From NCBI GenBank assembly GCA_020350285.1, contig CP070708.1, forward strand, positions 1,960,637 through 2,024,636: 64,000 bases of DNA. Reading direction: 5' to 3'. This stretch comes from Anaerolineaceae bacterium. GTDB taxonomy: Bacteria > Chloroflexota > Anaerolineae > Anaerolineales > E44-bin32. This document shows, piece after piece, positions 4,711 to 14,470 of the stretch. How positions within the stretch are numbered: position 1 is the stretch's first letter; each line of letters begins with the position of its first letter. Under the pieces are notes generated by a model. The model was not told the DNA's origin and did no database searches. It worked only from the letters and a program-made list of their open reading frames with translations. A program made the position numbers and the translations under genes.

Positions 4711-4940
4711 ATTATCGACATTTATCAGATCATTTAGGCGCACATCTGCAGAAGGCAGACTAGGTCTTAGTGTTTCAGAGAAAGCTCCGACTAACGAAAC
4801 AAGTTATAAAACATTGAAACATTTGTAAACAGGTACCAAATCATATTCTTATTGATCTTTCATTCCTCGAGAAAACCAGAGGAATCGAATAAGGTAGATA
4901 TCTTCACGAAAACGTTCGTAAGAAGAAAGGAGTAAATGTG

Positions 4941-5447
4941 ATGAACGACGAAGAAACGAGAAAGAAAGAATGGGAGGAGATCTTTCGCGACATCGGAACC
5001 AAGTTCAGGAAAGAGGCCGCAAGATTAACCGGGGCTGAAGAAACGGATGATTGGGAGACCATTGGTCAGAAGATGGAAGGAAAGGTGCGAGCGCAGGCAT
5101 CGAAAGTCGTGGGGGGTGAACCGGAGGAAGATTGGGAACAGATAGGTATGCGACTTCAAGGCAACGTCAAGTCCGAGGTGGCGAAAGTCGCGGATGCCGA
5201 TGAAAGCGACGACTGGGACACCATCGGACACAAGATGGAAGGAAAGATCAGATCTGAGGTGGCGACGGGCGTGGGTGGCGAGACAAATGATAGTTGGGAG
5301 CAGATCGGTAAACGTATCGATCAGGACGTTCGAGTGGGATTGGGCAAATGGGCTGGTGCCGAGCCCGAAGACGATTGGGCAACCGTCGGACATAAGATGG
5401 AGACCAAGATCAGAACGTCCTTGCGAGACTGGCTCAAGGGAGAATGA
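4941..5447 (+). CDS. Tandem 27-residue repeat protein, unknown
   Basis: 168 residues, hydrophilic, no signal peptide. Tryptophans fall at exact 27-residue steps (12, 39, 66, 93, 120 and 147, counting from a GTG one codon upstream), each in a D-D-W-x-x-I-G or W-E-Q-I-G context. The units alternate: type A reads DWxTIGxKMEGK, type B reads WEQIGxR, giving a 54-residue (162-base) super-period. Between the Trp motifs each unit has a short predicted amphipathic helix. AAAGGAG stands 8 bases before the ATG; the adjacent GTG is also possible. I do not recognise the family. A 47-codon membrane frame follows 27 bases later. Confidence 0.75.
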   Translation: MNDEETRKKEWEEIFRDIGTKFRKEAARLTGAEETDDWETIGQKMEGKVRAQASKVVGGEPEEDWEQIGMRLQGNVKSEVAKVADADESDDWDTIGHKMEGKIRSEVATGVGGETNDSWEQIGKRIDQDVRVGLGKWAGAEPEDDWATVGHKMETKIRTSLRDWLKGE

Positions 5448-5827: not shown

Positions 5828-6745
5828 ATGGAAGATATTGTGATTGAAGTAAGAGATTTCCGGAAGACTTATGGCGATTTCGTCGCGGTCGATGGCATCA
5901 GTTTTGACGTCAAGCGGGGCGAAATATTTGGCCTACTCGGTCCCAACGGAGCCGGAAAGACCAGCACGTTGGAGAGCCTAGAAGGTTTGCGTGAACCAAA
6001 CGGTGGTTCGATGCGGATCACAGGCATCGACCCAACGCACGAGCCCCGTAAGCTGCGCAACATCATTGGTGTTCAGTTGCAGACCTCAGGTTTACCAGAG
6101 AGCATCACCGTCGACGAGGCGATGAAGTTCTTCTGCGCCTACCATGGCGTAGAACCACGCTACGACCTCCTCGACCGCTTAGGCTTGGAGGAGAAAAGGA
6201 AAGCACAGTACCATCAACTTTCTACCGGTCAAAAGCGACGCCTAGCCCTTGGCTTGGCACTTGCCCACAACCCTTCTGTGCTCTTCTTGGACGAACCCAC
6301 CGCTGGATTGGACGTAGCCACGCGAGTCGAACTACACAACATCATGCGCGAGCAGCAAGATGAAGGCACATCGATCATCCTGGCAACACACGACATGGCC
6401 GAAGCGGAGGAAATGGCTAACCGAATTGCCATCTTGTTGCGCGGAAAAATCGTCACTACTGGAACACCGATGGAGATCACAGCAACTGGCGCAGGATTGA
6501 CCAAGGTTTCTGTTCGCACACAAGGCTCAAGTCTATCCGATCCTGGCGCTACATTTCCAGCAGTAAGCCAGCATGTTTCTAAAGATGAATACGACATCTA
6601 TTTCAGCACCGATATCGGTCCCACAGTCTCGGCCATTATCGCTCATGTCCAAGCTCGACAGGATACGCTGATCGATTTGCGTGTCGAACGACCGTCTTTG
6701 GAGGACCGCTTTCTGGAGATTACAACCTCGGGAGACGCACAATGA
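5828..6745 (+). CDS. ABC exporter ATP-binding protein
   Basis: 305 residues. Walker A GPNGAGKTS (about 39-47), Q-loop region, signature LSTGQ (131-135), Walker B VLFLDEPTAGLD (151-162) and switch His in ATHDMAEAEE. This is the CcmA/DrrA-type ATPase that drives an ABC-2 membrane partner. The C-terminal 90 residues form the extra domain common in drug or antibiotic exporters. GGGG stands just ahead of the ATG. The stop overlaps the start of the permease gene by four bases (ATGA), so the two are translationally coupled. Substrate cannot be told from sequence. Confidence 0.9.
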   Translation: MEDIVIEVRDFRKTYGDFVAVDGISFDVKRGEIFGLLGPNGAGKTSTLESLEGLREPNGGSMRITGIDPTHEPRKLRNIIGVQLQTSGLPESITVDEAMKFFCAYHGVEPRYDLLDRLGLEEKRKAQYHQLSTGQKRRLALGLALAHNPSVLFLDEPTAGLDVATRVELHNIMREQQDEGTSIILATHDMAEAEEMANRIAILLRGKIVTTGTPMEITATGAGLTKVSVRTQGSSLSDPGATFPAVSQHVSKDEYDIYFSTDIGPTVSAIIAHVQARQDTLIDLRVERPSLEDRFLEITTSGDAQ

Positions 6746-7560
6746 GCGCTTTTATCAATCACTTCTCATTCGAATTCCGCACCGGGATCCGCAACAGAAC
6801 CCTGCTCCTCATGAATTACCTTTTCCCCCTAGGCTTCTACCTCATGATGGGATTCATCATGCCGGCGATCAACCCGCTCTTCCTTGATACCCTTATCCCG
6901 GCATTGGTCGTATTCGCCATCCTGGCAGCCACGCTACTGGGTATGCCGGATCCACTTGTCAGCGCCCGTGAAGAAGGCATCTTTCGCAGCTATAAAATTA
7001 ACGGCATTCCCTCCATTTCGATTTTGACCATACCAGCTTTAACAACAATATTGCACCTGATGATTGTGGTCATCATCATCACCGTCACAGCACCATTTCT
7101 CTTCGATGCACCATTGCCGATGAACTGGGTCAATTATGCCCTGACCTTCATTGCCATGGCTGTTGCTTGCGTTGGTATAAGTTTGTTGATCGGCGTCATC
7201 TCAGCCAGTACGCGCATGACGGTATTGTGGTCTCAACTGATCTTCATCCCTTCAATGTTGTTGGGAGGGCTGATGATCCCTTACGACTTGTTACCAGATG
7301 TTGCTGGAAAGTTCTCCCAACTCTTGCCCGCCACCCATGCAATGAACGCATTCAATGGATTAGCCATGGGCGCGGCTGATTACTCCCCATGGGGTGCTCC
7401 ATGGGGTTCGGTCATTGTTTTAACCCTCAGTGGCGTGTTGGCATTCGCACTAGCGATTTACATGTTCAATTGGGATAGGCACAACACGACGCAGCGTGGC
7501 CATCCTATCTTTGCCCTACTGGCATTACTCCCTTACGTTGCTGGAATATTCTTGCTCTAG
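6742..7560 (+). CDS. ABC-2 type permease
   Basis: 272 residues with six hydrophobic segments in the ABC-2 arrangement. A conserved ABC-2 feature is the stretch SAREEGIFRSYKINGIP after the second segment and LLGGLMIPYDLLPD before the fifth. It overlaps the ATPase gene by four bases and would form the dimeric export channel with it. A Walker-type ATPase is absent here, as expected. The substrate is unknown; lipids, drugs and peptides are all exported by relatives. Confidence 0.88.
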   Translation: MSAFINHFSFEFRTGIRNRTLLLMNYLFPLGFYLMMGFIMPAINPLFLDTLIPALVVFAILAATLLGMPDPLVSAREEGIFRSYKINGIPSISILTIPALTTILHLMIVVIIITVTAPFLFDAPLPMNWVNYALTFIAMAVACVGISLLIGVISASTRMTVLWSQLIFIPSMLLGGLMIPYDLLPDVAGKFSQLLPATHAMNAFNGLAMGAADYSPWGAPWGSVIVLTLSGVLAFALAIYMFNWDRHNTTQRGHPIFALLALLPYVAGIFLL

Positions 7561-7955
7561 GAACCAATGCTGCTTTAGCACAAAACCGCAAACAGAATAG
7601 CGCATCTCAATTGATCTGCTCGGTATGTGCTAAACCTTTAGCTATTTAAAGAAGAGCAGAGGGTGCTAGGTCTCGAATTCGTGATCCAGGTATCATCGAA
7701 GGATGTGGCTAATCCACACAACCAATGAAGAATCAAATCAACTAATTTATCTACCCGATCGATAATTGGCCCCTTAGCTCACCACCATTACATCGTATCC
7801 TAATCACCTTTAGACTGTTTTATTAATTAATAGAACCCTCATCACACGCTACGTTCCCCAAGAATATGGACCATGCATGTCTATATTAAGTCGCTACTTC
7901 TTTGGGGGATGGGTGTTATCCGTATAAGCCGATGTTGCAAAGAAGGGGCAAGCGG
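7561..7955. other. 395-base leader region of the fab cluster with an AT-rich palindrome
   Basis: No gene is supported. TATTAATTAATA at 7821-7832 is a perfect 12-base palindrome upstream of fabF and could be an operator or merely AT-rich promoter DNA. AAGGGG at 7943-7948 is the fabF ribosome site. An ATG-like extension of fabF to 7902 lacks a ribosome site and is not needed by the family. Confidence 0.4.
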
Positions 7956-9203
7956 ATGGAAAGACAAGTTGTCATCACAGGCCTAGGCGTAGTCACACCA
8001 CTTGGCAATGATGTAGCCACCTTTTGGGAGGGGTTACTTGAGGGGCGTAGTGGTGTTGACCTCATCACGCTGTTCGATCCAGCGGATCTGGATGTGAGGA
8101 TCGCGGCCGAGGTCAAGGATTTCGACCCGGTCGCACTCTTTGGAAAAAGAGCCGCTCGTCGAAACGACCGCTTTACACACTTCGCCCTTGAGGCCACTCG
8201 TCAAGCCATCACCGACGCCGATATAAAGTTTGAAGGAAGTGATGGTCAGAAGGTTGGTGTGCTCATCGGCACCGCTATCGGCGGATTCATCACTCTGTTG
8301 GATAACTTCGAAGTTTTCAAAATCAGGGGTTCTCGAAGGGTAAGCCCTTTCATGGTGCCCATGATGATGCCCAACGCGGCCTCGGCCGCAATTGCCATCA
8401 CTTACGGATTACATGGCCCCAATCTCACAATCGCCTCCGCTTGTGCCACGGGTTCTCATGCCATCGGTGAGGCAGGAGAGATGATCCGACGGGGGCAATC
8501 CGAGGTGATGATCTGCGGTGGGAGTGAAGCCATTATCGCTCCTATAGCCTTAGCCGGATTGAAGAACATGGGTGCACTTTCCACTCGCAATGACGATCCA
8601 CAGCGAGCTAGCCGACCTTTTGACGCCGACCGTGACGGGTTCGTCATAGGGGAGGGAGCTGGAGTGTTGATCTTGGAAAGCCTGGAACACGCCAGTGCCC
8701 GTAAGGCGCGCATTTATTGCGAACTCACCGGGTATGGAGCTACATCTGACGCCTTTCACATCACGGCACCTGACGAGACTGGGCAGGGAGGCGCGTGGGC
8801 CATGGAACAAGCCCTCAGTGATGCTGCCATAACTCCTGAAGAAGTCGATTACATCAACGCACATGGCACCAGCACCCCTCTCAATGACCGAACCGAGAGC
8901 ATCGCCATTCGTACGGTTTTTGGTCCTCACGCTGACCAAATAGCCGTCAGTTCAACCAAATCGATGATTGGCCACCTTATCGGGGCCGCAGGTGCGGTCG
9001 AGGCTGTTGCATGTGTAAAGAGCTTAGAAACCGGCTGGGTCCACCCGACGATCAATTACGAGACTCCCGATCCGGAGTGCGACCTAGATTATGTCCCTAA
9101 CCAAGCGCGCAGACTTGAACCAAAGGTGGTCCTTTCAAATTCCTTCGGCTTCGGCGGTCACAACGGCTGTGTGATCCTGCGGAAATGGGATGAGACAGCT
9201 TGA
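7956..9203 (+). CDS. fabF: 3-oxoacyl-ACP synthase II (KAS II)
   Basis: Condenses malonyl-ACP with a growing acyl-ACP in fatty-acid elongation. 415 residues, the usual length. Catalytic Cys163 lies in ACATGS, His303 in NAHGTSTPLND, Lys335 and His340 in STKSMIGH: the complete Cys-His-His triad. The N-terminus MERQVVITGLGVVTPLG is canonical, and AAGGGG stands eight bases upstream, which fixes this start over a longer frame. It begins a same-strand block with carboxylase subunits, a MaoC dehydratase and fabI, so the cluster supplies malonyl-CoA and most steps of the elongation cycle. No acyl carrier protein gene or ketoreductase is in the window. Confidence 0.95.
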   Translation: MERQVVITGLGVVTPLGNDVATFWEGLLEGRSGVDLITLFDPADLDVRIAAEVKDFDPVALFGKRAARRNDRFTHFALEATRQAITDADIKFEGSDGQKVGVLIGTAIGGFITLLDNFEVFKIRGSRRVSPFMVPMMMPNAASAAIAITYGLHGPNLTIASACATGSHAIGEAGEMIRRGQSEVMICGGSEAIIAPIALAGLKNMGALSTRNDDPQRASRPFDADRDGFVIGEGAGVLILESLEHASARKARIYCELTGYGATSDAFHITAPDETGQGGAWAMEQALSDAAITPEEVDYINAHGTSTPLNDRTESIAIRTVFGPHADQIAVSSTKSMIGHLIGAAGAVEAVACVKSLETGWVHPTINYETPDPECDLDYVPNQARRLEPKVVLSNSFGFGGHNGCVILRKWDETA

Positions 9204-9259
9204 GTTCTCATCTCGGCTGAGGGTAAGCAATAGTTGGAATGGTGGTTGGAGGAGAAACA

Positions 9260-10807
9260 ATGGCGGAGTCGCCATTAAAACACCTTGAAGATATGCAAGC
9301 TAAAGCGCGTCGGGGTGGTGATCCTGAACGGGTCGAGAGGCAGCACGCCCAGGGGAAATTGACGGCGCGCGAAAGGCTGAACATCCTTCTCGACTCGGAT
9401 TCCTTCTTCGAGACCGACACTTTCGTCCTTCACCGTGCGACAGAGCTTGGCTTAGACCAGGAAAAACCGCTAGGCGACGGCGTTATCACGGGCTGGGGTG
9501 AGATTGATGGAAGGTTGGTTTACGTCTACGCTCAAGACTTCACCATCATGGGCGGCTCGGTAGGAGAGGCTCACGGACAAAAAATCTGCAAGCTGCTCAA
9601 TTTAGCGTTGGAGAACGGAGCCCCTGTGATCGGACTCATGGATTCTGGTGGGGCACGTATTCAAGAAGGGGTGTCCGCGCTGGCAGCTTACAGTGATATC
9701 TTCTACCACAACACGTTGGCCTCCGGGGTGATCCCTCAAATCTCCGTCATTATGGGTCCTTGTGCCGGTGGAGCGGTCTATTCTCCAGCCCTTACCGACT
9801 TCACGATCATGGTGGAAAACACGGCACGCATGTTTATCACTGGTCCTGATGTGATAAGCGCTGTGACCCATGAAGAGGTCACACCTGAGGAATTAGGCGG
9901 CGCTCATACCCATCACCAGAAAAGTGGTGTAGCACACTTTACCGCCCAAGACGACGCTCAAGCGTTGTCCCTCGTTCGACGGCTTCTCTCCTACCTTCCA
10001 CCGAACAACGCAGATGACCCGCCCTACCTGCCACCCACCGACCCTCCTGATCGAGCCGACGAGGAACTAGACCATCTTGTCCCTGAGGATCCCATAAAGG
10101 AATACGACATGTCGGAAGTCATCCGGCACATCGTGGACGATGGGGAGTTATTTGAGGTGCAGGAGAGTTTCGCCACCAACTTGATCGTAGGCTTCGCCCG
10201 TCTCGGAGGGCATGTCGTTGGTTTGGTGGCGCAACAACCAGCTGTGCTCGCAGGTGTGCTTGACATCGATGCCGTGGATAAGGGAGCACGCTTCATCCGC
10301 TTCTGTGACTGTTTTAATATCCCCCTGATCACATTCACCGACACGCCTGGTTTCCTGCCCGGGGTAGCTCAGGAGCATGGCGGCATCATCCGACACGGGG
10401 CGAAAATGATCTACGCGTATGCCGAAGCGACGGTGCCGAAGCTCTCTATCATCACCCGCAAGGCCTATGGTGGAGCCTATATCGTTATGAGTTCCAAGCA
10501 TTTAAGAGGAGACATTTGTCTCGCGTGGCCCTCAGCTGAGATCGCCGTAATGGGCCCTGAGGGAGCGGTAAATGTGATCTATCGTCAAGAGTTGTCGCAA
10601 GCGGATGATCGCGAAACGGTCCGTGAACAGCTCGTGAAGGATTATCGGGAGCAATTCGCTAATCCTTACGTCGCCGCTGGCCGTGGCTATCTGGATGGTG
10701 TGATCCCTCCCTCTCAAACCCGTCCGACGCTGATCGATTCGCTCCAGATGCTACGCGGAAAACGAACCCGCCGTCCGCGCCGAAAACATGGCAACATGCC
10801 GCTGTAG
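9260..10807 (+). CDS. Acyl-CoA carboxylase carboxyltransferase subunit (PccB/AccD-type, single chain)
   Basis: 515 residues from the ATG preceded by GGAGGAG. The two crotonase-like halves of a carboxyltransferase are fused in one chain: the N-half has GGSVGEAHGQK and MDSGGARIQEGV, the C-half has TDTPGFLPG and the tail RRPRRKHGNMPL typical of PccB. It moves the carboxyl group from carboxybiotin to acetyl- or propionyl-CoA in the cytoplasm. The following genes encode the biotin carboxylase and the carrier, so the complex is a three-polypeptide carboxylase. The position beside fabF argues for acetyl-CoA as the substrate, but propionyl-CoA cannot be excluded. Confidence 0.92.
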   Translation: MAESPLKHLEDMQAKARRGGDPERVERQHAQGKLTARERLNILLDSDSFFETDTFVLHRATELGLDQEKPLGDGVITGWGEIDGRLVYVYAQDFTIMGGSVGEAHGQKICKLLNLALENGAPVIGLMDSGGARIQEGVSALAAYSDIFYHNTLASGVIPQISVIMGPCAGGAVYSPALTDFTIMVENTARMFITGPDVISAVTHEEVTPEELGGAHTHHQKSGVAHFTAQDDAQALSLVRRLLSYLPPNNADDPPYLPPTDPPDRADEELDHLVPEDPIKEYDMSEVIRHIVDDGELFEVQESFATNLIVGFARLGGHVVGLVAQQPAVLAGVLDIDAVDKGARFIRFCDCFNIPLITFTDTPGFLPGVAQEHGGIIRHGAKMIYAYAEATVPKLSIITRKAYGGAYIVMSSKHLRGDICLAWPSAEIAVMGPEGAVNVIYRQELSQADDRETVREQLVKDYREQFANPYVAAGRGYLDGVIPPSQTRPTLIDSLQMLRGKRTRRPRRKHGNMPL

Positions 10808-10828: not shown

Positions 10829-12322
10829 ATGATTAAAAAAGTGCTTGTGGCCAATCGAGGAGAGATCGCGGTTCGGGTGCTGCGAACCTGCAAGGAATTG
10901 GGTTTTGAAACAGTGGCGATCTACTCCGAAGCCGATCGAGAAGCACTTCACGTTCGCTTCGCCGATGAAGCTTATTGCATCGGTCCACCACCGCCAAAGG
11001 ACAGTTATCTGCGAGGGGATCACATCCTCCAAGTGGCGCTAGAAGCAGGGGCTCAACTTATCCACCCCGGTTATGGATTTCTGGCCGATTCTCCTGAATT
11101 CGCACGAGCCTGTAACGATGCTGGGGTAACCTTCGTCGGACCTCTACCAGAGACGATCGAGCAATTGAGCGATAAAGCGGCAGTTCGTCGTTTAGCTCGC
11201 CGCCTACGCCTCCATATCCTGCCGGGAACTAAGCGATCACTAGATGATGCTCAGCTCTTGGCATCCGCAGACAAGATAGGTTACCCCCTCTTGCTCAAGG
11301 CCGCGGCGGGTGGCAGTGGTATAGGGATCCAAATAATCAACTCACACTCAGAATTGGAGACTGCCATCCCCACCGCTCGTCGAGAAGCACGAACTACCTT
11401 CGGTGATGGGGCGTTATACCTCGAACGATTAATTGAGAACGCTCGACACATCGAAGTTCAGCTGTTAGCTGATGCAGAAGGTCACATCATCAACTTAGGA
11501 GAACGAGAGTGCTCCATCCAGCGACGTCATCAAAAACTAATTGAGGAGGCCCCCTCTCGAGCTCTCGATTCCTCACTGCGGAGAAAGATCTTAAGATCCG
11601 CGGTACGTATCGCACGAACTGTGGGTTTCATCGGCGCTGGAACGGTTGAGTTCTTGCTTGATCCAGAAGGAAGATACTACTTCCTCAAGGTTAACCCTCG
11701 TCTGCAGGTAGAGCACACAGTGACAGAGGCCGTCACAGGAGTTGACATCGTCAAAGAACAACTAAGGATCGCAAGCGGGCGGAGTTTGAGGTACTCCCAG
11801 AAAGAGGTTAAGCCTCGCGGTTGGGCGTTGGAATGCCGCATCTTAGCCGAAGATCCATTCAGGAATTACACTGCTAGCATAGGTCGCATCTCTCGCTTAC
11901 ATGAACCCGGTGGACCAGGTGTAAGGGTGGATAGTGGAATATACGAAGGGTTGGCGATCACGCCCTACTATGACTCATTGCTCGCTAAACTCGTGACGTG
12001 GGGGGAAACAAGAGGCGTAGCGATTGTACGCATGCGAAGGGCGTTGGAGGAGTATCGAATCCACGGCGTGATGACCAATCTAGATCTACACCGTGCGCTC
12101 CTCAACAGCCACCGTTTCTTTGGTGGTCAATTTCACACACGCTTCCTGGAGGAGCAATTCGTGCCCAAGGAACCTGAGGAGGAGGAGTATTTAGCAGCCG
12201 CACTGACTACAGCATTGCTGGACTGGCGCAGACGAGCAGGAGCCCAAACACAATCCAACGGTGTAGCAAACCGCTGGAAGATGTTAGGTCGTTGGGAACT
12301 GCTAGGTGGTGGTGATCCGTGA
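10829..12322 (+). CDS. accC: Biotin carboxylase, with an unusual active site
   Basis: 497 residues, ATP-grasp. Carboxylates the biotin of the neighbouring carrier with ATP and bicarbonate. Kept: Lys116, Lys157, Lys236 in RRHQK, Glu274 in GTVEF, Asn289, Arg291 and QVEH. Two departures stand out. The motif normally reading F-[LI]-E-M-N-x-R is FLKVNPR here, so the metal-binding Glu (E. coli E288) is Lys287, encoded by AAG. The ATP-lid glycine loop, usually GGGGRGM, is GGSGIGI. The rest, including the C-terminal domain, is full length, so it is not a simple pseudogene. The stop overlaps the carrier gene by four bases (GTGA). A second, normal AccC may exist elsewhere. Confidence 0.88.
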   Translation: MIKKVLVANRGEIAVRVLRTCKELGFETVAIYSEADREALHVRFADEAYCIGPPPPKDSYLRGDHILQVALEAGAQLIHPGYGFLADSPEFARACNDAGVTFVGPLPETIEQLSDKAAVRRLARRLRLHILPGTKRSLDDAQLLASADKIGYPLLLKAAAGGSGIGIQIINSHSELETAIPTARREARTTFGDGALYLERLIENARHIEVQLLADAEGHIINLGERECSIQRRHQKLIEEAPSRALDSSLRRKILRSAVRIARTVGFIGAGTVEFLLDPEGRYYFLKVNPRLQVEHTVTEAVTGVDIVKEQLRIASGRSLRYSQKEVKPRGWALECRILAEDPFRNYTASIGRISRLHEPGGPGVRVDSGIYEGLAITPYYDSLLAKLVTWGETRGVAIVRMRRALEEYRIHGVMTNLDLHRALLNSHRFFGGQFHTRFLEEQFVPKEPEEEEYLAAALTTALLDWRRRAGAQTQSNGVANRWKMLGRWELLGGGDP

Positions 12323-12828
12323 GATATCAAGTCACCGTAGAAGGACGCACCTTCGATATCGAAGTCACCCCTGACGGACAAGTGTGGGTGGACAACCAGC
12401 CGCTACATGTCGACCTGGAAAGCATCGATGGATTGCCACTCTACTCCCTGTTGGTTGATCACCGCTCCTATGATGCACATGTGGAGAAAAATGAAAACGG
12501 TGACCAACAGGTGGTCGTCGCAGGGAGACCCTATCGAGCTACGATGCAAGGGGAAAACATCCCTACCACTCAGGTTACCCAACACCAAAAGGATGAAGGC
12601 CCTTCAGAGATATCAGCCCCTCTACCTGGTTGGTTGGTGGATGTGAGGGTGGCTGAAGGAGAATCAGTTGGAGCCGGTGATGTGGTGGCTGTATTAGAAT
12701 CGATGAAGATGCACCTTGAGCTACGTACTGCCAGAGATGGAGTTGTGCGTTCCATTAGCGCTAGCGCTGGCCAAGTGATCTCCCAGGGGGAGATTATCGC
12801 TGTCATTGATGATCTTCCCAGGGCATGA
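12319..12828 (+). CDS. accB: Biotin carboxyl carrier protein
   Basis: 169 residues with a GTG start embedded in the stop of accC, so translation is coupled. The C-terminal 75 residues are a biotinyl domain with the biotinylation site LESMKM (Lys130), followed by the thumb-like stretch and the second half-repeat GEIIAVIDD. The N-terminal 95 residues resemble the small beta domain found ahead of the biotinyl domain in acyl-CoA carboxylase carriers. It swings carboxybiotin between the two preceding gene products. A biotin ligase is not in the window. Confidence 0.92.
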   Translation: MRYQVTVEGRTFDIEVTPDGQVWVDNQPLHVDLESIDGLPLYSLLVDHRSYDAHVEKNENGDQQVVVAGRPYRATMQGENIPTTQVTQHQKDEGPSEISAPLPGWLVDVRVAEGESVGAGDVVAVLESMKMHLELRTARDGVVRSISASAGQVISQGEIIAVIDDLPRA

Positions 12829-12887: not shown

Positions 12888-13364
12888 TTGAGGGAGATCG
12901 AGCAATTACGAGGAAAACATTTCGAGGAAATAGCTGTCGGTGATATAGCAGAAAGCCCAGGGCGAACGATAACCGAGAACGACATTATGCTTTTCGCTGA
13001 CTTTACCGGTGATCACAATCCCGTACACACCAACGCGGAGTATGCAAAAGGGACGATCTACGGTGAGCAGGTCGCCCATGGTTTGTTAGGGTTATCGATC
13101 GCGGGTGGCCTGGCGTGGCATACGGGTCTACTTGAAGGAACGGCGGAAGCCCTTATCAGTATGGATTGGAAGTTTCGTAACCCGATATACATCGGGGACA
13201 CGATTAAGCTTCGCGCTGAGGTACGGAAGAAGAAAGAGATGCCCCGCATGAACGGCGGCTTCGTCACCTTTAATGCGACCGTACTAAATCAGAAGGACGA
13301 GACGGTTCAGAAGGGAACTTGGACCTTATTAATTCGCTCTAGATTTGGGGAGAGAGAAAAGTAA
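12888..13364 (+). CDS. MaoC-family (R)-hydratase/dehydratase
   Basis: 158 residues, hot-dog fold. The hydratase-2 motif is intact: FTGDHNPVHTNAEYA, holding the catalytic Asp and His, then AHGLLGLSI. TTG start with AGGAGG seven bases upstream. Relatives add or remove water at 3-hydroxyacyl thioesters. Placed between the carboxylase and fabI, it may serve as the 3-hydroxyacyl-ACP dehydratase of the local pathway in place of FabZ; this is inference. A stand-alone (R)-specific enoyl-CoA hydratase role is the alternative. A palindrome of the 3'-end family starts two bases after the stop codon. Confidence 0.85.
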   Translation: MREIEQLRGKHFEEIAVGDIAESPGRTITENDIMLFADFTGDHNPVHTNAEYAKGTIYGEQVAHGLLGLSIAGGLAWHTGLLEGTAEALISMDWKFRNPIYIGDTIKLRAEVRKKKEMPRMNGGFVTFNATVLNQKDETVQKGTWTLLIRSRFGEREK

Positions 13365-13681: not shown

Positions 13682-14470
13682 ATGAAATTGCTCGAGGGAA
13701 AGACCGCTCTGATCTTTGGGATCGCAAATGACCACTCAATTGCTTGGGGTATTGCCCAAGCCATGCATGCCCAAGGCGCCCGCATGGCTTTTTCGTATTC
13801 CAGTCCCGCGCTCGAAAGGAGAGTGCGACCGCTTGCAGAAAAAGTTGACGCCGTGTTTATAGAAAAGTGTGATGTGAGTCGTGATGAGGAAATCGAGGCG
13901 GTTTTCGCTCGAACAGCGGATGAATTGGGCACCATCGACATCCTGGTCCACTCTATCGCCTTCGCTAATCGGGAAGAGCTGATGGGGAACTTCTACGAAA
14001 CCAGTCGAGACGGATTTCATCTCGCGTTTGACATCAGTGTCTATTCCTTCATCGCCCTTGCCCGAGCAGCCTTACCGCTCATGAATCAAGGGGGGTCGAT
14101 GTTGACGATGACCGCCAATGGCGGCGAGCGGGTGTGGCCAAATTACAACGTCATGGGTGTGGCTAAAGCCGCTCTGGAGGCGACAATGCGTTACCTGGCC
14201 GCGGATCTAGGTCCCCGAGACATCCGCGTCAACGCCATCTCGGCTGGGCCCATACGAACTCTATCAGCGGCCGGCGTGAGCGGTTTCAAACTTATGTATC
14301 GGCATTTCCCCTCCATCGCTCCCCTACGACGTAACATCACGATCGAGGACGTCGGAGAAACGGCGGTTTGGTTGTCTTCGGATATGGCACGTTCTGTCAC
14401 CGGTGTTGTCCTGTTTGTGGATTCCGGTTTCAATGTCCTCGGGGTGCCGACCATCACGGATCAAGTGTAA
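13682..14470 (+). CDS. fabI: Enoyl-ACP reductase (FabI family)
   Basis: 262 residues, the usual length. NAD-binding start FGIANDHSIAWGIA, then the catalytic segment PNYNVMGVAK with Tyr155 and Lys162. It would reduce trans-2-enoyl-ACP, closing the elongation cycle begun by the nearby fabF. One oddity: the upstream Tyr conserved in FabI (E. coli Tyr146, in LTLSYLGAER) is replaced by Ala145 in LTMTANGGER. The SDR-type catalytic pair survives, so activity is likely but substrate or inhibitor handling may differ. Good ribosome site (AGGAGG) upstream. Triclosan response cannot be inferred. Confidence 0.9.
   Translation: MKLLEGKTALIFGIANDHSIAWGIAQAMHAQGARMAFSYSSPALERRVRPLAEKVDAVFIEKCDVSRDEEIEAVFARTADELGTIDILVHSIAFANREELMGNFYETSRDGFHLAFDISVYSFIALARAALPLMNQGGSMLTMTANGGERVWPNYNVMGVAKAALEATMRYLAADLGPRDIRVNAISAGPIRTLSAAGVSGFKLMYRHFPSIAPLRRNITIEDVGETAVWLSSDMARSVTGVVLFVDSGFNVLGVPTITDQV

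Follow-up and report, generated by a model that had tools for sequence, protein, structure and literature searches.

Biotin carboxylase (BC), an antibacterial target, catalyzes the first half of the reaction that commits the cell to fatty acid synthesis, and its active site is very highly conserved. In the Chloroflexus aurantiacus enzyme BC1, Glu287, which matches Glu288 of E. coli AccC, is described as a ligand of Mg-ADP with strict conservation all the way from bacteria to humans (PMC11077971), and the E. coli AccC variant E288K, a mutant that folds and binds ATP, has been crystallized in a Mg-free complex with ATP (PDB 1DV2; discussed in PMC4922591). In the open-access literature we found no source on Glu288 kinetics, and in its full text no description of a biotin carboxylase pseudoenzyme. 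Non-catalytic relatives of acetyl-CoA carboxylase subunits that are nevertheless kept are described in plants, where the carrier-like but non-biotinylated BADC proteins are reported either to glue the BC-BCCP complex of the plastid enzyme together or to inhibit it (PMC11926652). The trypanosome prozyme is a catalytically dead activating paralogue, an inactive copy kept beside its active relative (PMC5201418).

The window analyzed here is a 64,000-nucleotide stretch of the single 3.4-Mb contig of an Anaerolineaceae genome (G000), and it contains a fatty acid operon with the following genes.
7902-9203, plus strand: FabF-type beta-ketoacyl-ACP synthase, first gene of the operon, start uncertain.
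9239-10807, plus strand: CT2, carboxyltransferase subunit of the PccB type with the motif GGAYIVM (Ile at the substrate-selecting position) and intact invariants; start uncertain, orthologs beginning near 9275.
10829-12322, plus strand: BC2, predicted pseudo-biotin carboxylase of 497 amino acids, a full-length BC fold without one metal ligand.
12319-12828, plus strand: BCCP2, biotin carboxyl carrier with an intact ESMKM biotinylation motif, sharing 4 bases with the 3' end of BC2.
12888-13364, plus strand: MaoC-type dehydratase/hydratase.
13682-14470, plus strand: FabI-type enoyl-ACP reductase.

By homology BC2 is a member of the AccC family, with matches above cut-off to Biotin_carb_N (PF00289), CPSase_L_D2 (PF02786), and Biotin_carb_C (PF02785), each full length and together spanning the entire protein. 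Its AlphaFold model has the BC fold, with a mean pLDDT of 84.1 and values below 50 only at residues 446-454 and 472-497, and the PDB matches of the model are BCs. The protein is thus like E. coli AccC and the BC1 and BC2 of C. aurantiacus (names unrelated to the labels BC1 and BC2 used here) in its full-length homology, its fold, and its place between carboxyltransferase and carrier genes, but the second metal ligand and further invariants are missing from it, and its counterparts in two more distant genomes, G409 and G776, lack much of the catalytic set. The codons at issue, with the invariant positions numbered as in the E. coli enzyme, are these.
11087-11089, plus strand: GAT, Asp87 at invariant Glu87, private to the window species.
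11168-11170, plus strand: AGC, Ser114 at invariant Gly114, common to all three species with Lys288.
11315-11317, plus strand: AGT, Ser163 at invariant Gly165 of the glycine-rich loop, private to the window species.
11687-11689, plus strand: AAG, Lys287 at the Glu288 metal-ligand position; AAG also in G002 and G003, GAG (Glu) in G001.

An earlier note on this DNA, made from the sequence, had pointed to Lys at the Glu288 position, and that is borne out: the metal-ligand site reads FLKVNPRLQVEH, and Glu occupies the position in all 110 of the other BCs in our alignment, a set drawn from many phyla from which we also judge the occurrence of Lys288 outside Chloroflexota. The metal-ligand pair of a working enzyme is therefore incomplete, with Glu276 present and Glu288 replaced by Lys. 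The same note considered the glycine loop, GGSGIGI, to be unusual, which holds for the Ser (G165S) but not for the Ile at Arg167; a functional change at Arg167 was rejected, because the site is K, R, M, or I among ordinary BCs. Its statement that the other active-site residues are intact is right for K116, K159, H209, K238, E276, N290, R292, E296, and R338, all of which are retained, but it overlooks E87D, G114S, Y269F, and P349A, which occupy positions of 99% or higher invariance in the alignment with the 110 other BCs. Six positions, E288, R292, K116, G164, G165, and E87, are occupied by these residues in every one of the 110. Since most of its catalytic residues are retained, some residual activity of the window BC2 is possible; with one catalytic ligand swapped it is the mildest case, and the argument for loss of function rests on its relatives as well.

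Among the congeneric genomes G001-G004, BC2 is 90% identical to the window protein in G002 and 85% in G003, both with Lys288, and 79% in G001, which has Glu288; it was not found in G004, a genome that is 76% complete. The suggestion that Lys might be a clade trait is thus correct for three of the four BC2-carrying genomes of the genus, and a pattern scan of 400 genomes of the order finds Lys in this motif in three, all in the window's genus. The case that would have refuted the note, Glu in all close orthologs, is not what was found, and a sequencing error, which the note had also allowed for, is rejected because the assemblies of two other species carry AAG at the same site. Common to the three Lys288 species are G114S and E288K. 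To these, at otherwise invariant sites, the window species adds the private losses E87D, G165S, and Y269F, G002 adds K116N and Q237H, and G003 adds G164A and R292C, the private losses of G002 and of G003 each being based on one assembly. The G001 protein has two invariant-site changes, G153N and P349A, neither at a residue counted as catalytic. Altogether each BC2 protein of the Lys288 clade breaks 5-6 invariants, versus 0-2 in all others of the 110-BC alignment. Relative to branch length, the Lys clade has 9 breaks in 0.30 changes per site, whereas the BC2 stem together with the branch to G001 has 2 in 0.85 (binomial p = 2e-4, or 6e-4 without E288K), and in the same three species changes at invariant sites amount to 0/53 in BC1, the second carboxylase of these genomes, versus 7/79 in BC2 (Fisher p = 0.04), both tests being approximate, with branch lengths taken from the tree.

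The shared E288K most simply predates the species split, so that the differences among the three Lys288 proteins postdate it. Over that interval dN/dS for the three pairs is 0.10, 0.08, and 0.08 (dS 0.52-0.97), no higher than the 0.10-0.16 of intact BC2 pairs, so overall constraint on the protein did not weaken when the metal ligand was lost; the ratio is somewhat above the 0.03-0.06 obtained for BC1 in these species. The later invariant losses combined with low dN/dS mean that the BC2 protein has been kept and its active site has not. These are the features of a pseudoenzyme, namely catalytic residues lost while fold and sequence remain under purifying selection, and a pseudogene is rejected, the frames being open and dN/dS low. 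Part of the constraint at the level of the gene could come from translational coupling to BCCP2 through the 4-base overlap, but coupling would not explain constraint at the level of amino acids.

The BC2 family extends beyond the genus, and in a search of 400 Chloroflexota genomes, followed by 48 of one order, orthologs were recovered in other families, most of them intact. Two outside the genus are dead, in G409 and G776, with 16 and 14 invariants lost, respectively, including catalytic Glu296 and N290. The G409 protein has Y82H, G83D, K116R, G164N, G166D, G168T, K238R, E288K, N290Y, R292H, E296A, and R338A, among others, and the G776 protein has G83R, K116R, G164K, G165D, G166E, G168S, E288R, N290K, and E296G, among others. 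Both reading frames are nevertheless open for more than 500 codons with codon-position bias kept, and both are accompanied by an intact CT2. (The CT2 reading frame of G409, L135:6619-8964, encodes 781 amino acids and is about 260 longer at the N terminus than the others, perhaps through a fusion or a differently placed start.) In the tree the window's Lys clade lies beside G001 and G779 and apart from G409 and G776, and a single clade of all dead copies is rejected by the AU test with active-site columns removed (p-AU 0.001), which implies two or more separate losses of catalytic residues, one of them possibly common to G409 and G776 (80/77 support).

A search of the genome for a second accC, which the note had proposed, was successful. 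Each BC2-carrying genome of the genus has exactly two BCs, BC2 and BC1, together with a separate CT1 and BCCP1, and BC1 has every active-site residue that was checked. BC2 as a recent duplicate of BC1 within the genus was also considered and is rejected, as BC2 forms its own clade. Copies from another order surround it there, and for this reason the operon was likely gained horizontally by the window's genus, presumably in that direction. In 14 of the sampled Chloroflexota no BC other than BC2 was found; BC2 is dead in five of the six genomes with two BCs and in none of these 14 (Fisher 4e-4, a value that ignores kinship, the independent losses numbering only two or three). Some of the single-BC genomes are incomplete drafts, and several are 96-100% complete (G576, G781, G771, and G780). 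The exception among the two-BC genomes is G001, which has both BCs with BC2 intact. Contamination stands at 8% and 5%, respectively, in the draft bins G409 and G776, whose pairing of BC1 with BC2 could be a binning artifact, a problem that the window genome does not have because it is a single contig. The second BC of G776 (L178:3659-5706) adjoins a carrier with EAMKM; the 8-kb contig that holds it also encodes BTAD-type regulators, and no carboxyltransferase was found on it. Despite being a single contig, G000 scores as only 80.5% complete, and its congeners score 76-91%; the lineage may lack some of the marker genes.

A search for damage elsewhere in the operon found none: in all operons tested, whether the BC is dead or not, CT2 deviates at no more than 1 of 64 invariants, and ESMKM is present in every BCCP2 whose motif was read, a count that leaves aside G774 and G773, in which the motif search matched another stretch. 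At the substrate-selecting position CT2 has Ile and CT1 has Asp. Asp at this position is characteristic of propionyl-CoA carboxylases, and the residue affects the use of acetyl-CoA versus propionyl-CoA in Streptomyces (PMC7835884). With Ile where the propionyl-CoA enzymes have Asp, CT2 is most likely an acetyl-CoA carboxylase subunit for fatty acid synthesis.

Loss of catalysis in BC2 is well supported by these comparisons, and the reading we prefer, with a probability of roughly 0.6, is that the protein is catalytically lost but kept, that the CT2/BCCP2 complex uses its body, and that BC1 supplies the carboxybiotin. The ancestral protein would have been an active BC, forming with CT2 and BCCP2 an acetyl-CoA-type carboxylase within a fatty acid operon. 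In the window's genus, which has the BC1 set, Glu288 was lost, and other residues of the ATP and bicarbonate sites followed species by species, leaving a BC2 probably unable to carboxylate biotin. It would stay for the assembly or stability of the CT2/BCCP2 complex, and carboxybiotin would come from BC1, either because BC1 carboxylates BCCP2 or because CT2 uses BCCP1. It is from selection alone that we infer a structural role; the preservation of BC2 beside intact partners despite its losses suggests a structural or regulatory part. Of the explanations offered by the earlier note, a scaffold and another AccC that does the work are thus favored jointly. In comparison with the engineered single mutant of E. 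coli, which has the same substitution at the same site, the window BC2 is natural, has further changes, and has been kept through species divergence. It resembles plant BADC, which is likewise a retained relative of an acetyl-CoA carboxylase subunit and does not itself catalyze, a likeness of working and not of kinship, but BADC is a carrier relative without the biotinylation motif, whereas BC2 is a carboxylase relative whose carrier is intact. BC2 is like prozyme in being a probably inactive paralogue found together with an active relative, but any physical or regulatory interaction between BC2 and BC1 would be hypothetical.

A regulatory role is possible but weaker than one in assembly or stability. 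According to this explanation, which we consider unlikely, BC2 would be an ATP-binding subunit in which a basic residue at 288 replaces Mg, so that ATP is bound without hydrolysis and the energy state is reported to the CT2 complex or, through mixed dimers, to BC1. BC2 has kept R16, R19, E23, and R366, which we take to be interface residues of the E. coli BC dimer. The residues at 288 in the dead lineages are Lys, Lys, and Arg, and the E. coli E288K crystal structure shows that ATP can be held without Mg (PMC4922591). However, a common substitution of one base turns GAG into AAG, and two or three occurrences may be due to chance, while in G409 and G776 the elements that hold ATP, the glycine loop and K116, are altered as well. 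A wider generalization, which we regard as doubtful, is that BC has repeatedly become a non-catalytic, possibly ATP-sensing subunit of the acetyl-CoA carboxylase of fatty acid synthesis, with the operon BC trading its metal ligand for a basic residue when a second carboxylase is present and staying on as a scaffold or regulator.

It is improbable, in our estimation, that BC2 is still active and simply tolerates Lys288, perhaps with one metal held by Glu276 or with a changed geometry, the remaining explanation that the earlier note had offered. The window protein itself is compatible with activity, in having most of the other catalytic residues, an intact fold, and undiminished purifying selection, and ATP binding persists in E. 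coli E288K (PDB 1DV2; PMC4922591), but altered metal geometry gives no account of the later losses in the relatives: sister species have lost K116, R292, and a loop glycine that are unchanged in the 110 other BCs, and the distant relatives have lost E296 and N290, which a working enzyme should have retained. That BC2 is instead a redundant gene in early decay with no retained function, to which the elevated rate of breakage at active-site invariants and the second intact BC might point, is very improbable and is contradicted if the dN/dS result stands, since free decay over post-loss synonymous distances of 0.5-1.0 should bring the ratio to about 1 and not 0.08-0.10, the five dead copies contain no stops or frameshifts, and codon-position bias is kept in G409 and G776.

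The orthologs form a natural series, from intact, through loss of one metal ligand, to fully dead, while the other operon genes stay intact, which illustrates how an ATP-grasp enzyme loses its chemistry and allows the structural job of a BC to be tested apart from catalysis. It also cautions against taking every gene annotated as accC to be functional and against assuming that gene clusters never share carboxylase partners.

The order fabF, CT2, BC2, BCCP2, MaoC, fabI is conserved across the genus, with fabF not seen in G003, where the contig ends. A fabH (KAS III) gene lies between fabF and CT2 in G002 (L036:10539-11714) and G001 (L038:5909-7174) and is absent from the corresponding interval of the window (9203-9239). 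Just upstream of the operon, an ABC transporter ATPase and an ABC-2 permease (5828-7560) are conserved in G002, and a short reading frame at 4938-5447 contains several copies of the approximate repeat DDWxxIGxKxExKxR.
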